Shown: piece by piece, positions 1 through 18,217 of the stretch
How the letters are laid out: every line of letters begins with the position of its first letter
How positions within the stretch are numbered: position 1 is the stretch's first letter
Assembly (NCBI RefSeq): GCF_007833215.1
Contig: NZ_CP042239.1
Location: 1,178,001-1,242,000 of the forward strand
Length of the DNA: 64,000 nucleotides
Direction: 5' to 3'
Source of the DNA: Sphingomonas suaedae
GTDB taxonomy: Bacteria; Pseudomonadota; Alphaproteobacteria; Sphingomonadales; Sphingomonadaceae
Notes under the pieces: model-generated
What the model saw: only the letters and a program-made list of their open reading frames with translations
What the model was told of the DNA's origin: nothing
Database searches by the model: none
Program-made: the position numbers and the translations under genes

Positions 1-319
1 ACACGCCGGGACCGGCGGCGAGCGCGCGGACGCGCTCCTGCGTCAGCGGCGCACCACGCGGGGTCATCGCCAGCATCGGGCGGTCATAGCCGACGCTGTC
101 GCAGGCGGCGGCGAGGATGTCGGGCTTGAGCACCATCCCCGCCCCGCCCCCCGCCGGCGTGTCGTCGACGGTACGGTGCTTGTCGGTGGCGAAGTCGCGA
201 ATCTGGACGGTGTCGAGGCTCCATTTCCGCTCATTCAGCGCGCGTCCGGCGATGGACGCGCCAAGTGGCCCCGGAAACATGTCCGGGTAGAGGGTCAGGA
301 CGGTGGCGGCGAAGGTCAT
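1..319 (-). CDS. trmD: tRNA (guanine-N1)-methyltransferase TrmD, N-terminal part (runs off the left edge)
   Basis: TrmD is a SAM-dependent SPOUT methyltransferase that makes m1G37 in tRNAs with G36-G37 and prevents +1 frameshifting; it is usually essential. The translated minus strand starts [15 protein letters not shown] and carries the glycine-rich [13 protein letters not shown] segment at about residues 50-62, typical of TrmD. About 106 codons are present; the C-terminal part of the protein lies outside the window. The ATG at 319 overlaps the TGA of the upstream toxin gene (ATGA, 316-319). No strong Shine-Dalgarno precedes it, so translation is probably coupled. The usual upstream partner rimM is absent; a VapBC pair takes its place. 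Confidence 0.93.
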
Positions 320-699
320 CGGGTCCAGTTTTCGCACCTGAGGCCGGGGATATCGGCAAAATCGGCTTCGTTGTTGGTGACGAGTATGAGGTTGAGCGAA
401 AGGGCGTGGGCGGCGATCAGCCGGTCGAAACTGCCACGTTTGAACGGAATTTGCGCATAGGTGCGTGCGGCGTCCCGGTCGAATTCGAGAAGCGGAGCCG
501 CCTCGTAAAGGGCATCGGCAGCCGCGCGTGCTGCCGAGTTGGCTCCCACTAGGCCGCGTTCCAATTCTGCAAAGACGATGGCTGAAATGCCGACCGTTCC
601 CACATCCTGCAATGCCAGGCGCTGAGCCGACGGACTGGTGAGATCAGCCAGAATGTAGATGCAGATATTGGCGTCGAGCAGGTAGCGCAGATCAGTCAC
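316..699 (-). CDS. VapC-type PIN-domain ribonuclease toxin
   Basis: A 127-residue PIN-domain protein. Visible acidic residues fit the family active site: D9 in LLDAN, E45 in FAELERG, D92 in [10 protein letters not shown], and D113 after VTNNEADF. VapC toxins are metal-dependent RNases that cut tRNA or rRNA and are held inactive by the cognate antitoxin. The start overlaps the 3' end of the antitoxin gene by 8 bp, and the stop overlaps the trmD start by 4 bp, so antitoxin, toxin and trmD form one coupled unit. The full-length domain suggests an intact toxin. The RNA target is unknown. Confidence 0.88.
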
Positions 700-964
700 C
701 CTTGATCCGCTTCAAACCCCAGTCGAGTTCACGCTCCTCGAAGATGCGATCCTCGGGCGGGATCGGCTTCAACCAGGGAATCTTTCCGGCGAATTTACTG
801 ATGTCGATCTTCTTCGGTGTCTCGGCGACCGGTTCGACGATGAAATTGCCGCGCTCCTCGCGCACCTTCATTTCCATGCCTTCCTTGATGCCAAGCGCCT
901 TGGGCAGCCGCAGGGCGACCGAATTGCCCGACTTGAACGTCTTTGCGCGATATTCGTCGCCCAT
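692..964 (-). CDS. VapB/AbrB-type antitoxin
   Basis: About 90 residues. The N-terminus ([20 protein letters not shown]) is the swapped-hairpin AbrB/MazE-like DNA-binding fold; the C-terminal half ([21 protein letters not shown]) is the likely toxin-wrapping tail. I chose the ATG at 964 because GGGAGG lies 5 nt upstream (970-975); an in-frame GTG at 967 is the alternative. Antitoxins of this class repress their own operon together with the toxin, and a matching repeat lies just upstream at 976-996. It is the first gene of antitoxin-toxin-trmD. Confidence 0.85.
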
Positions 965-975
965 CACGGCCTCCC

Positions 976-14235: not shown

Positions 14236-15696
14236 CTAGCCGTCCAGCGCCTTTCTGAGCAGGTCGTTGACCACGCCGGGATTGGCCTTGCCCGCCATCG
14301 CCTTCATCGTCTGGCCGACGAAGAAGCCGAACAATTTGTCCTTCCCGCCGCGATAATCGGCGACCTTGTCGGCATTCGCCTCCAGCACCTTGGCGATTTC
14401 CGCCTCGATCGCGCCGGTATCGGAGGTCTGCTTGAGTCCGCGCTCCTCGACGATCTTTGCAGGATCGTCGCCTGTCTCCAGCATGATCTCGAACACCTGC
14501 TTGGCGAGGCTGCCGGACAACGTACCGTCGGCGACCAGGCCCAGCAGCTCAGCCGCCTGAGCGGGCGAAACCGGGCTGTGCTCGATATCCTTGCCGAGCC
14601 GATTGAGCGCGCCGAACAGTTCCGACGTCACCCAGTTCGCCGCCGCCGGCCCCTTCGCCCCGGCCTCCAGCAGCGCATCGAAATAGCGCGCGGATTCGAC
14701 TTCGGCGGTCAGCACGCCCGCATTATAGGGAGTAATGCCGAGCGCGACGTAGCGCGCCCGCTTGGCATCGGGCAGTTCTGGCAGCGACTTGCGGCAATCG
14801 TCGAGGAAGGCGTCGTCCAGCTCCAGCGGGAGCAGGTCGGGATCGGGGAAGTAGCGGTAATCATGCGCATCTTCCTTCGACCGCATCGACCGCGTCTCGC
14901 CGCGATCCGGGTCGAACAGGCGGGTTTCCTGCACGATCGTGCCGCCGCTCTCCAGCACCTCGATCTGGCGCTTCGCCTCGATCTCCACCGTCTGCATGAC
15001 GAAGCGGACCGAGTTGACGTTCTTGGTCTCGGTCCGCGTGCCGAACTCCGCGCCGGGCTTGCGCACGCTGACGTTCACGTCGGCGCGCATCGATCCCTGG
15101 TCCATATTGCCGTCGCACGAGCCGACATAGCGCAGGATCGAGCGCAGCTTGGCGAGATACGCCCCGGCTTCGGCGGGCGAGCGCATGTCGGGCTTGGACA
15201 CGATCTCCATCAGCGCAACGCCGCTGCGGTTGAGGTCCACATAGGACAGGCGCGGATGCTGGTCGTGCATCAGCTTGCCGGCATCCTGCTCGACATGGAT
15301 ACGCTCGACGCCGATAACCTTGGTCTCGCCGTCCACGTCGATCTCGACCGCGCCCTCGCCGACCAGCGGGTGGTAGAGCTGGCTGATCTGATAGCCCTGC
15401 GGCAGATCGGCGAAGTAGTTCTTGCGGTCGAAGCGCGACCATTTGTTGATTTTCGCATCAATCGCCATGCCGGTGCGCACCGCCTGGCGGATGCACTCGC
15501 GGTTCGGAACCGGCAGCATCCCCGGCATCGCGGCGTCGACCAGGGAGACCTGCGTATTCGGCTCCGCCCCGAACGCGGTCGCCGCGCCCGAGAACAGCTT
15601 GGCGTTGGACGTGACCTGCGCATGGACCTCCAGGCCGATCACGACCTCCCACTCACCGGTTTCGCCTTTGATGCGGTATGCAGTTGCGTCAGCCAT
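14236..15696 (-). CDS. gatB: Asp-tRNA(Asn)/Glu-tRNA(Gln) amidotransferase subunit B
   Basis: 486 residues, normal length. Starts [27 protein letters not shown] and contains the cradle-domain block [35 protein letters not shown]..., then the C-terminal YqeY-like tail (about residues 330-486) that binds tRNA. GatB is the kinase subunit that phosphorylates misacylated Glu/Asp-tRNA before amidation. The ATG overlaps the stop of a VapC-type toxin gene by 8 bp and has only a weak Shine-Dalgarno, so translation is likely coupled to the toxin. Normally gatB directly follows gatA. Confidence 0.96.
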
Positions 15697-16102
15697 GTTC
15701 GGTCTCTGGTGTAAGGAAGGTCAGTTCCGGAAAATAGGATGCCAGCCGCTGGTCGCGCGTCATCAACGTCGCGCCCAACACCGTTGCATGCGCGCCGATA
15801 AGGAAATCCGGCAAGATTGTCGAACGCGGACCACCGCGACGGCGATATTCGCGAAACGCGGCGGCGGCGCGCAGCGCCACGGGCGGGGTGAGGTCGAGGA
15901 TTTCAATGCCAAGCTGGCCCATGTCATCGACCAGCGCGTTGGGTTGCTGCACGCCGACCGCGACTTCTGACACGACGATCAGATTAGCGCCAAGTCCGAC
16001 GTCATTGGCATAGCGATCGAACAGACGCGCGGCCCAGCCCCGGTCCACCGAGGAGGGCTGGTTCATCAGATCGATCACGGCATTGCTGTCCAGAAAAATC
16101 AC
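15689..16102 (-). CDS. VapC-type PIN-domain toxin inside the gat operon
   Basis: 137 residues. PIN active-site acids are visible at D5 (FLDSNAVID), E46 (VVSEVAVG), D99 ([11 protein letters not shown]) and D117 (MTRDQRL). A second, clearly different VapC from the one before trmD. Its start overlaps the antitoxin stop by ATGA and its 3' end overlaps the gatB start by 8 bp. It is expected to be an RNase neutralised by the upstream antitoxin. Domain looks intact. Confidence 0.88.
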
Positions 16103-16395
16103 GGCAGCGGTTCGTCGCCGCGCAGGAACTCCATGATCTCGTCGGTCGCCTTTCCGGTGCTTTGCCGGGCACGGACTTCCGCCAGTACCTTCATCAACCG
16201 CGCGCGGCGCTCGTCCGGCGTTTCGGTCGGTTCGGACGGCGCGGGCAGCACCACCGCCTCACCGCGATCATTGATCCCCACCTGCACCGGTTTGCCCGGC
16301 TGCAGGCCGAGACGGTCGCGCACATCCTTGGGGATCAGCACCTGACCCTTGCTGGTCATGTTGGTAACGGTGCGAAGATCGATCGGCGCGTTCAT
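16099..16395 (-). CDS. AbrB/SpoVT-type antitoxin inside the gat operon
   Basis: 98 residues. The N-terminal TVTNMTSKGQVLIPKDVRDRLGLQPG is the AbrB-like DNA-binding fold (TSKGQVxIPKxxRxxLG). The C-terminal half is a charged helix (ETPDERRARLMKVLAEVRARQ) ending [13 protein letters not shown], the probable toxin-binding tail. It is 50 bp downstream of gatA and coupled to the toxin. A perfect inverted repeat lies just upstream (16408-16426) and would suit autoregulation. TGGAG about 8 nt before the ATG. Confidence 0.86.
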   Translation of the reverse strand: MNAPIDLRTVTNMTSKGQVLIPKDVRDRLGLQPGKPVQVGINDRGEAVVLPAPSEPTETPDERRARLMKVLAEVRARQSTGKATDEIMEFLRGDEPLP

Positions 16396-16407
16396 GGCGA
16401 TGCTCCA

Positions 16408-16426
16408 GTGTTACCGGAGGTAACAC
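16408..16426 (-). promoter_or_regulatory. Putative antitoxin operator: GTGTTACC-GGA-GGTAACAC
   Basis: Perfect 8-bp inverted repeat with a 3-nt centre, 12 bp upstream of the antitoxin ATG, in the 50-bp gap after gatA. Placement and symmetry fit VapBC autoregulation. A further GGTAAC half-site occurs inside the antitoxin gene near 16363. It could also be transcribed as a small hairpin between gatA and the antitoxin. Confidence 0.6.
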
Positions 16427-16445
16427 CGGGCGTCCGGCGTTTCAA

Positions 16446-17930
16446 TCACCACCACTGCTCCGGCCGCGCCGTGAATCCCGCGCGCTGCTCGATCGCGAGG
16501 CTCGCGTTCAGCACGCCCTGCTCGTCGAGCGGCTTGCCGATGATCTGCAGGCCGAGCGGCAGCCCGTCCTTGTCCAGCCCGCCGGGCACCGACATCGCGG
16601 GGATGCCTGCCAGCGAGGACGGCACGGTGAACACGTCGTTCAAATACATCGCCAGCGGATCGGCCGATTTCTCGCCCAGCGCGAATGCGGCGCTCGGCGC
16701 GGTCGGGGTCAGCAGCAGGTCGCAGTGCAGCCATGCCCGCTCGAAGTCGCGCGCGATCAGCGTGCGGACCTTCTGCGCCTGGGTGTAATAGGCGTCGTAA
16801 TAGCCCGCCGAGAGCACATAGGTGCCGATCAGGATGCGGCGCTGCACCTCCGGGCCGAAGCCCGCGGCGCGGGTCGCGGCGTACATGTCCTGCAACCCCG
16901 CCCCATCGGGCAGGTCGCGCTGGCCATAGCGCACGCCATCATAGCGGGCGAGGTTGGACGACGCCTCCGCCGGGGCGATGATGTAGTAAGCTGGCAGCGC
17001 GTATTTCGTGTGCGGAAGCGAGACCTCGACGATCTCCGCGCCTGCATCCTTCAGCCAGTCGATGCCCTGCTGCCACAGCGCCTCGATCTCGCTCGGCATG
17101 CCGTCGACGCGATATTCTTTGGGGATGCCGACCTTCTTGCCGCGCAGGTCGGGGTTCAGCCCCTGCTCCCAGTTGGGCACGTCGAGCTTGAGCGAGGTCG
17201 CGTCCTTGGCGTCGAAGCCCGCCATCGCCTCCAGCATGATCGCGCAGTCGCGCACGTCGCGCGCCATCGGCCCCGCCTGGTCGAGCGACGAGGCGAACGC
17301 CACCACGCCCCAGCGCGAGCAGCGGCCATAGGTCGGCTTGATGCCCGAAATGCCGGTGAATGCCGCAGGCTGGCGGATCGATCCGCCGGTATCGGTGCCG
17401 GTCGCCGCCGGGCACAGCCGCGCCGCGATCGCCGAGGACGAACCGCCCGACGAACCGCCGGGTGCGAGCGGGGCATTGCCGCCATCCTTGCGCCGCCACG
17501 GGCTGATCACATTGCCGAAATAGCTGGTCTCGTTCGACGACCCCATCGCGAACTGGTCGAGGTTCAGCTTGCCCAGCATCCCCGCGCCCGCGTCCCACAA
17601 TTTCTGCGAGACGGTCGATTCATAGACCGGCTTGAACCCCTCCAGCATATGGCTGGCGGCGGTGGTCTGCACGCCCTTGGTGCAGAACAGGTCCTTCATG
17701 CCGATCGGCACGCCGGCCAAGGGCTTCAGCGTTTCGCCAGCGGCGCGCGCGGCATCGGCTTCACGCGCGGCGGCCAGCGCATGTTCGGGCGTTTCGACGA
17801 TGAAGGCGTTGAGCGCCTTGGCCGCGCTCACCTTGACGATGAAGGCGTCGGCGACTTCCTTGGCCGAAAACTCGCCGGTGCGGATGCCGTCACGCAGCGC
17901 GGCGACGCCGAGAGTGGTGACGTCGGTCAT
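16446..17930 (-). CDS. gatA: Asp-tRNA(Asn)/Glu-tRNA(Gln) amidotransferase subunit A
   Basis: 494 residues. Amidase-signature catalytic triad is readable: Lys79 (PIGMKDLF), cis-Ser near 160 ([10 protein letters not shown]) and nucleophile Ser184 ([11 protein letters not shown]), with the same spacing as in characterised GatA. It hydrolyses glutamine and feeds ammonia to GatB. The start overlaps the gatC stop by one base (TAATG). The 3' neighbour is a VapBC pair rather than gatB. Confidence 0.97.
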
Positions 17931-18217
17931 TATTCGATCACCTTGGGCACGGTGAAAAAGCCATGCTCGGCAAGCGGCGCATTGGCCAGCACCGCGTCGC
18001 GCATGTCGCCGTCGTTCACGACGTCGTCGCGCAGGCGCAGCGTGTTGGGGATCACGGCGGTCATCGGCTCGACGGACGAGGTATCGACCTCCCCCAGCTG
18101 CTCGATCCAGCCGAGGATGTTGTTGAGCTCAGGCGCGAGCCGCTCGGCGTCGGCATCGCTGATCGCGATGCGCGCAAGGCTCGCGACCTTCTTCACGGTG
18201 GCGGTATCTACGGACAT
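17930..18217 (-). CDS. gatC: Asp-tRNA(Asn)/Glu-tRNA(Gln) amidotransferase subunit C
   Basis: 95 residues, normal length. [41 protein letters not shown] is the GatC helical start, followed by the extended [13 protein letters not shown]...[10 protein letters not shown] and the C-terminal FFTVPKVIE. GatC clamps GatA to GatB. First gene of gatC-gatA-[antitoxin-toxin]-gatB; the promoter must lie in the 43-bp gap or within the end of the upstream gene. Confidence 0.95.

Follow-up and report, generated by a model that had tools for sequence, protein, structure and literature searches.

A vapBC toxin-antitoxin pair as occupant of a cassette slot between gatA and gatB in Sphingomonas suaedae

The gatCAB operon encodes the Asp-tRNA(Asn)/Glu-tRNA(Gln) amidotransferase, and in Sphingomonas suaedae a vapBC toxin-antitoxin pair stands between its second and third genes; how does a toxin come to lie inside an operon of essential subunits, and is the neighboring gatB tied to it? 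The locus was studied in a stretch of 64,000 nucleotides, hereafter the window (C1:1178001-1242000 of a 4.15-Mb single-contig genome, contig NZ_CP042239.1), on whose minus strand the genes run gatC-gatA-vapB-vapC-gatB, all co-directional. The original prediction, made from the letters of this DNA, had described a complete pair between gatA and gatB with gatC and gatA adjacent, and the gene order together with the Pfam and TIGR matches bears this out. The feature is real and more general than first described: in Sphingomonadaceae, this essential operon has a cassette slot, i.e., an insertion hotspot, between gatA and gatB, and the vapBC of the window is one of its occupants. A literature search, which left most subscription papers outside its reach, found no description of a vapBC pair or a cassette slot in gatCAB.

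The size of the junction, counted from the stop codon of gatA to the start codon of gatB, was sorted into three classes (<=50, 51-250, and >250 nt). Among 37 genomes of the same genus, the window included, 35 could be resolved and fell into these classes as 8, 9, and 18, respectively, while in the family Sphingomonadaceae, sampled with a single genome from each genus, 69 of 78 genomes were examined, and the 65 resolved gave 19, 13, and 33. Taken together, genus and family supply 100 resolved genomes, and in 51 of them the gap is >250 nt. From the remaining families of the order, 21 of 24 genomes were examined, and the 19 resolved gave 18, 0, and 1, with gatA and gatB separated by -16 to +17 nt in 18 of the 19; in one genome of these families, G047, no gatA lies within about 5 kb. 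As a control, the gatC|gatA gap was measured at those genus and family loci with gatC in the fetched sequence (50 loci); it exceeds 250 nt once and spans 60-249 nt in 11 (51/100 vs 1/50 for gaps >250 nt, Fisher p 8.5e-11), and the trmD|rplS distance stays at -10 to +6 nt in all 29 loci measured, of 30 from the genus. Since gaps >250 nt are rare or absent in the controls and the other families, the wide gap is particular to the gatA|gatB junction in Sphingomonadaceae. The three nearest relatives by GatB illustrate its variability, as two of them are empty, with gatB beginning 1 nt past gatA (G015 and G030), and the third (G026) has 145 nt without vapBC.

The cargo of the slot is diverse. Genes in the gaps were called from open frames and codon-position GC, a rough procedure by which some gaps >250 nt yielded no call; with vapBC-only genomes left out, 49 open reading frames (ORFs) of at least 110 aa were called, and 40 of them were compared with Pfam. 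Glycosyltransferase, acyltransferase, hexapeptide-transferase, FkbM-methyltransferase, or flippase families, usually read as serving surface polysaccharides, account for 23 of the 40, and the rest comprise one Methyltransf_24, one Trypco2, the two genes of a vapBC in genome G089, and 13 without a match. None of the 40 matched an integrase, and no tRNA gene that might serve as an integration site lies in the gaps of the 51 loci wider than 250 nt. Past the 3' end of gatB, a tRNA-Leu is found in 6 of these 51 (L108, L127, L178, L174, L170, and L172). Cargo on the gat strand frequently overlaps gatA or gatB at its ends, and cargo on the opposite strand also occurs (e.g., G002, G004, and G023). At six loci (L133, L134, L135, L129, L197, and L208), two or more called ORFs, many of them polysaccharide-type and several running against the gat genes, separate gatA from gatB, and gatB there probably has another route of expression. 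The vapBC of G089 lies behind a stretch that, by eye, resembles a small protein of G025 and G033; therefore, insertions may stack. Accessory-gene hotspots between core genes are a familiar concept, and the slot resembles them in placing varying cargo, here surface-polysaccharide-type genes or toxin-antitoxin genes, at a fixed core-gene junction; however, it lies inside an operon of essential subunits, and an integrase is lacking from the 40 cargo ORFs scanned. Likewise, the three gat genes of the window are intact and keep the order and strand of a usual gatCAB operon, but a cassette parts gatA from gatB.

In the window, gatC (17930-18217; TIGR00135 over cut-off) overlaps gatA (16446-17930; TIGR00132 over cut-off) by 1 nt; these are followed by vapB (16099-16395), which encodes a 98-aa antitoxin of the AbrB/MazE fold (PF04014, 32.5 bits; TIGR01439 over cut-off), and, with a 4-nt overlap, by vapC (15689-16102), a PIN-domain toxin of 137 aa with a GTG start (PF01850, 39.7 bits vs a cut-off of 23.6). 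The vapC stop and the gatB start (14236-15696; TIGR00133 over cut-off) share exactly 8 nt, ATGGCTGA, at 15689-15696, as originally noted, and all of these features lie on the minus strand. The Pfam families GatC, Amidase (GatA), MazE_antitoxin, PIN, and GatB_N/GatB_Yqey are all matched above their cut-offs. An assembly artefact is unlikely, as the gene order and the 8-nt overlap are shared by contigs of two metagenome-assembled genomes (MAGs): L010, a Sphingomonas MAG with 97% GatA identity and the nearest named relative at this locus, and L011, a more distant Sphingomonadaceae MAG with 71%. The 3' end of gatB (14236-14700) is less conserved than its first two thirds, mostly at 76-85% DNA identity to four close relatives.

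The pair appears to qualify as a type II VapBC module, with a PIN toxin, an overlapping upstream antitoxin gene, and an operator-like palindrome; it shares with such modules the gene order, the 4-nt overlap, the PIN acids, the palindrome before the antitoxin, and the fold, and departs from them in sitting inside an essential operon and overlapping the next operon gene. The residues D5, E46, D99, and D117, presumably the catalytic acids, are invariant in 13 gat-slot VapCs, as would be expected for a working nuclease. An AlphaFold model of VapC (pLDDT 87.7) adopts the PIN fold, and its best fold matches in the PDB are VapC toxins, with R. felis VapBC2 (3zvk), Mtb VapBC15 (4chg), and F-plasmid VapBC (9h6a) as the closest VapBC folds; a search of PDB chains by sequence returned none at E<=1e-3. 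Against the NCBIfam equivalog NF047959 (TA_toxin_VapC), VapC scores 25.6 bits, where the curated score is 80, placing it outside that named subgroup. Used as a single query against 61 genomes, the window VapC retrieved six matches at E<=4.3e-17, its own included, all in the gat slot, and two weak ones elsewhere; this VapC family is thus tied to the gat slot in the genomes searched. A family profile, which is circular for its own members and serves only to check for other strong copies, found no further strong copy in 79 family genomes, the next matches being at E 1.9e-8 or weaker with no gat gene within 1.5 kb. In 56 genomes of the class outside the family, it gave four matches at E<=1e-8, and gatB is missing from the surrounding 1.5 kb of all four; one of these (L284) is accompanied by an amidase-like match of 29% identity on the other strand. 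Wider relatives of VapC exist in many taxa at 78 other homologous loci (L012-L089, among the matches listed), without a gat gene in the flanks examined. A recent arrival by plasmid was also considered; relatives occur on 80 plasmid records, all below 60% identity, and no recent plasmid source was seen.

Twelve base pairs before vapB lies a perfect 19-bp palindrome, GTGTTACC-N3-GGTAACAC (16408-16426), a putative VapBC operator. It occurs once in the window even with up to two mismatches allowed (0.00 expected from 100 shuffles), and the exact motif with a spacer of 2-3 was found at 15 of 282 fetched loci, every one a gat-slot vapBC, from 7 genomes. The remaining gat-slot loci carry, by eye, repeats of the GGTAATAC/GTATTACC type, and the type of operator appears to track the type of VapB, a pairing that would fit VapB binding its palindrome. 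The inverted repeat of the original prediction is thus perfect and operator-like, and the promoter that it was taken to mark stays putative.

Occupation of the slot by vapBC is a minority state, observed in 6 of 35 resolved genomes of the genus, the window included, and in 5 of the 65 resolved one-per-genus family genomes, i.e., 11 of 100; the two MAGs raise the number of loci to 13. Other genomes thus hold the same arrangement, as the original prediction had proposed to check, and it recurs sparsely. At the junction, 29 of the 35 genus genomes have no VapC of the gat-slot family, other toxin types not having been looked for; with G015 and G030 empty, most relatives lack this insertion, the first half of what had been named as counting against a link to gatB expression. 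Where vapBC is present, the toxins differ strongly, at 35-55% identity in all pairs but one (85%), against 77-93% for GatB. In three genomes with GatB 90-93% identical (G005, G035, and G009), the VapC of G009 is only 49-53% identical to those of G005 and G035, which share 85%. On a tree of the gatA and gatB ends from 96 genomes (11 entries, G004, G012, G013, G028, G044, G071, G077, G088, G116, G123, and G127, were dropped or not resolved), the vapBC label, carried by 11 rows, needs 10 changes, close to a shuffled mean of 10.6; this tree replaced an earlier one with long GatA tails, in which a length filter retained 1 of the 11 vapBC rows. Two genomes without vapC, G006 and G020, nevertheless begin gatB with ATGGCTGA, and these starts may be scars of lost vapBC. 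Cassettes would accordingly seem to be gained, lost, and perhaps swapped. The word "spliced", as the insertion was first described, implies a single event, whereas the slot looks repeatedly filled, emptied, or exchanged.

Several observations weigh against such turnover by exchange. The starred inner branches of the tree number only 11 of 93, and these force only at least 4 vapBC changes; sliding identity along gatA and gatB does not drop next to the junction, as it would be expected to after an exchange; and VapC and GatB identities correlate (rho 0.44), so that part of the VapC divergence may reflect fast vertical evolution. Moreover, the sample holds one genome per species, from which exchange by recombination is inferred only. 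A different history, rather than a different mechanism, would have vapBC enter once in an ancestor of the family, evolve fast, and be lost or overwritten many times. The same architecture in several genera and in the distant L011 speaks for it, as do the possible scars in G006 and G020 and the VapC tree, in which a single group of 72 rows (support 87) takes in 7 of the 8 gat-slot rows and leaves out all 78 rows from elsewhere, compatible with a single origin. However, L011 lies outside this group, where the tree does not settle its placement, two VapB and operator types occur among close relatives, and the vapBC label is scattered as if shuffled; we regard a single entry as a tenable but less probable history.

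The second part of the question concerns the translation of gatB. Shine-Dalgarno (SD) duplex energies at the locus are -2.9 for gatB, -6.9 for gatA, -5.6 for vapB, -2.4 for gatC, and -2.1 for vapC. The gatB SD is therefore weak, as originally described, and since those of gatC and vapC are equally weak, this alone is unremarkable. The comparison between junctions is more telling. The 3' end of gatA (TGGTGGTRA) is the position at which the gatB SD falls in relatives with tight junctions, as junction sequences and SD energies indicate; at junctions of <=50 nt, the gatA end, often TGGTGGTAAG, occupies the SD position, with a median of -7.8 (n=27), compared with -3.0 (n=11) where vapBC intervenes (p 2.4e-5). 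Among the 11 loci, vapC and gatB overlap by 8 nt in nine and by 4 nt in two; with L010 and L011, where the overlap is 8 nt, one or the other is present in 13 of 13. Given the lost SD and the constant stop/start overlap, termination-reinitiation from vapC is the likely route of gatB translation, and gatB is probably coupled to vapC.

We consider it reasonably probable that the junction is a cassette slot whose vapBC occupant is coupled to gatB and whose cassettes are gained, lost, and swapped. Repression of their own promoter by VapB-VapC complexes belongs to type II toxin-antitoxin biology, and vapB probably has two sources of transcripts, read-through from gatCA and a promoter at the palindrome that is under such repression. 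The stop/start overlaps would tie vapB, vapC, and gatB together, and ribosomes finishing vapC would most likely restart at gatB, the insertion having removed the SD at the gatA end; one translational unit would then yield both a toxin and an essential subunit, and disruption of vapC would tend to lower GatB. For the exchange of cassettes, homologous recombination in the conserved gatA and gatB sequences on either side would be the simplest explanation. The originally suggested dependence of GatB on the toxin-antitoxin unit draws indirect support from a gatB that lacks the SD of tight junctions. A strong gatB promoter inside vapC, named earlier as contrary evidence, was not found in a sigma-70 scan, which is weak evidence because other promoter types were not covered.

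Coupling also has points to answer. The gatB SD behind other inserts is as weak as that behind vapBC (median -3.5, n=62), so its loss stems from insertion generally and not from vapBC specifically, and opposite-strand cargo leaves gatB uncoupled to what precedes it, so gatB can live without coupling. Both facts suit the alternative of a permissive junction that merely tolerates insertion, in which gatB initiation or a promoter of its own suffices and VapBC has no effect on GatB; the many unrelated cargos accepted there fit it as well, and 73 of 89 gatB genes without vapBC begin with ATGA, from which a stop/start overlap is easily formed. It explains less readily why the 8- or 4-nt overlap is kept in every vapBC copy although VapC lies at 35-55% identity in nearly all pairs, or why trmD repeats the pattern, with a 4-nt overlap in 12 of 15 genus loci that have an upstream VapC1 match, and we hold mere tolerance to be unlikely. 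A functional partnership, in which VapC would cut the tRNA-Gln or tRNA-Asn on which GatCAB acts and joint expression would keep toxin and amidotransferase in balance, is far less probable still. Some VapCs do cut tRNA-Gln, as described for VapC-mt11 (PMC6459853). Place-tied VapC families also adjoin two genes of tRNA enzymes. However, what the slot more often holds has no obvious tRNA role, most relatives have no gat-slot VapC, the 78 homologous loci listed elsewhere have no gat gene in the flanks examined, and five other VapCs of the genome precede genes of the UDG, GlmS-type, CobT, M17 peptidase, and thymidine kinase families. A tRNA-level purpose for the gat-slot vapBC is not supported, and the earlier suggestion of such a link loses ground to a gap that more often holds other cargo or nothing.

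The trmD locus offers a parallel. A second VapBC of the window (316-967) directly precedes trmD, which runs off the left end of the window, and the claim that two unrelated VapBC pairs are each joined to a translation gene holds: their VapCs belong to different families, and relatives, too, have vapBC at either site. The genus supplied 30 trmD loci (L237-L266), 28 of them with at least 1.4 kb upstream. With the trmD start placed at the conserved ATG/GTG, which lies 18 nt into the longest frame (in G031 an ATG 3 nt later), VapC ends 4 nt inside that start in 12 of the 28, the window included. The copies of the 11 relatives are 41-50% identical to that of the window, and their family is distinct from the gat-slot VapC; three more genus trmD loci have a VapC1 match nearby. 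The two sites are alike in joining a PIN/AbrB pair by overlap (4 nt at trmD) to an essential tRNA-enzyme gene and unlike in the VapC family. A second VapC1 match lies further upstream in G002 and G023. At L258, L261, and L262 (G034, G024, and G018), a tail resembling a vapC end stands, by eye, before trmD without a VapC1 match, a possible scar of a lost module. In this genome, rimM lies far from trmD (G000:C1:664562-664777), and the usual rimM-trmD pairing is therefore broken.

The habit extends beyond these two sites. At seven of the eight PIN loci in the genome (L001-L008), a co-directional host gene comes next at a spacing of -8 to +17 nt, namely trmD, gatB, and genes with UDG, CobT, thymidine kinase, M17 peptidase, and SIS/glutamine-amidotransferase (GlmS-like) matches; this proportion rests on eight loci and compares with 18 of 56 neighboring pairs at such spacing among crude gene calls in the window. 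VapBC in this genome tends to sit inside host operons, and not only tRNA-related ones. The eighth locus is flanked by what look by eye like imuB and dnaE2, on the other strand. Tentatively, and with less conviction than for the coupled cassette, sphingomonad VapBC lineages might be specialists that anchor themselves to essential genes of tRNA enzymes, gatB for one family and trmD for another, the modules taking over initiation of the gene by start overlap so that the toxin is not cheaply lost or silenced, with alleles swapped through the flanks. By its geometry and the SD difference, the vapBC of the slot is a candidate for a selfish element anchored to gatB.

The persistence of chromosomal toxin-antitoxin pairs is an old question, and a slot that is empty, filled with other cargo, or filled with fast-diverging VapBC alleles in close relatives allows a direct test of whether a toxin is retained through its overlap with an essential gene. 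Cassettes of toxin genes and of surface-polysaccharide-type genes can thus settle in a core translation operon, and the slot affects how operon conservation and GatB expression are to be read in Sphingomonadaceae.

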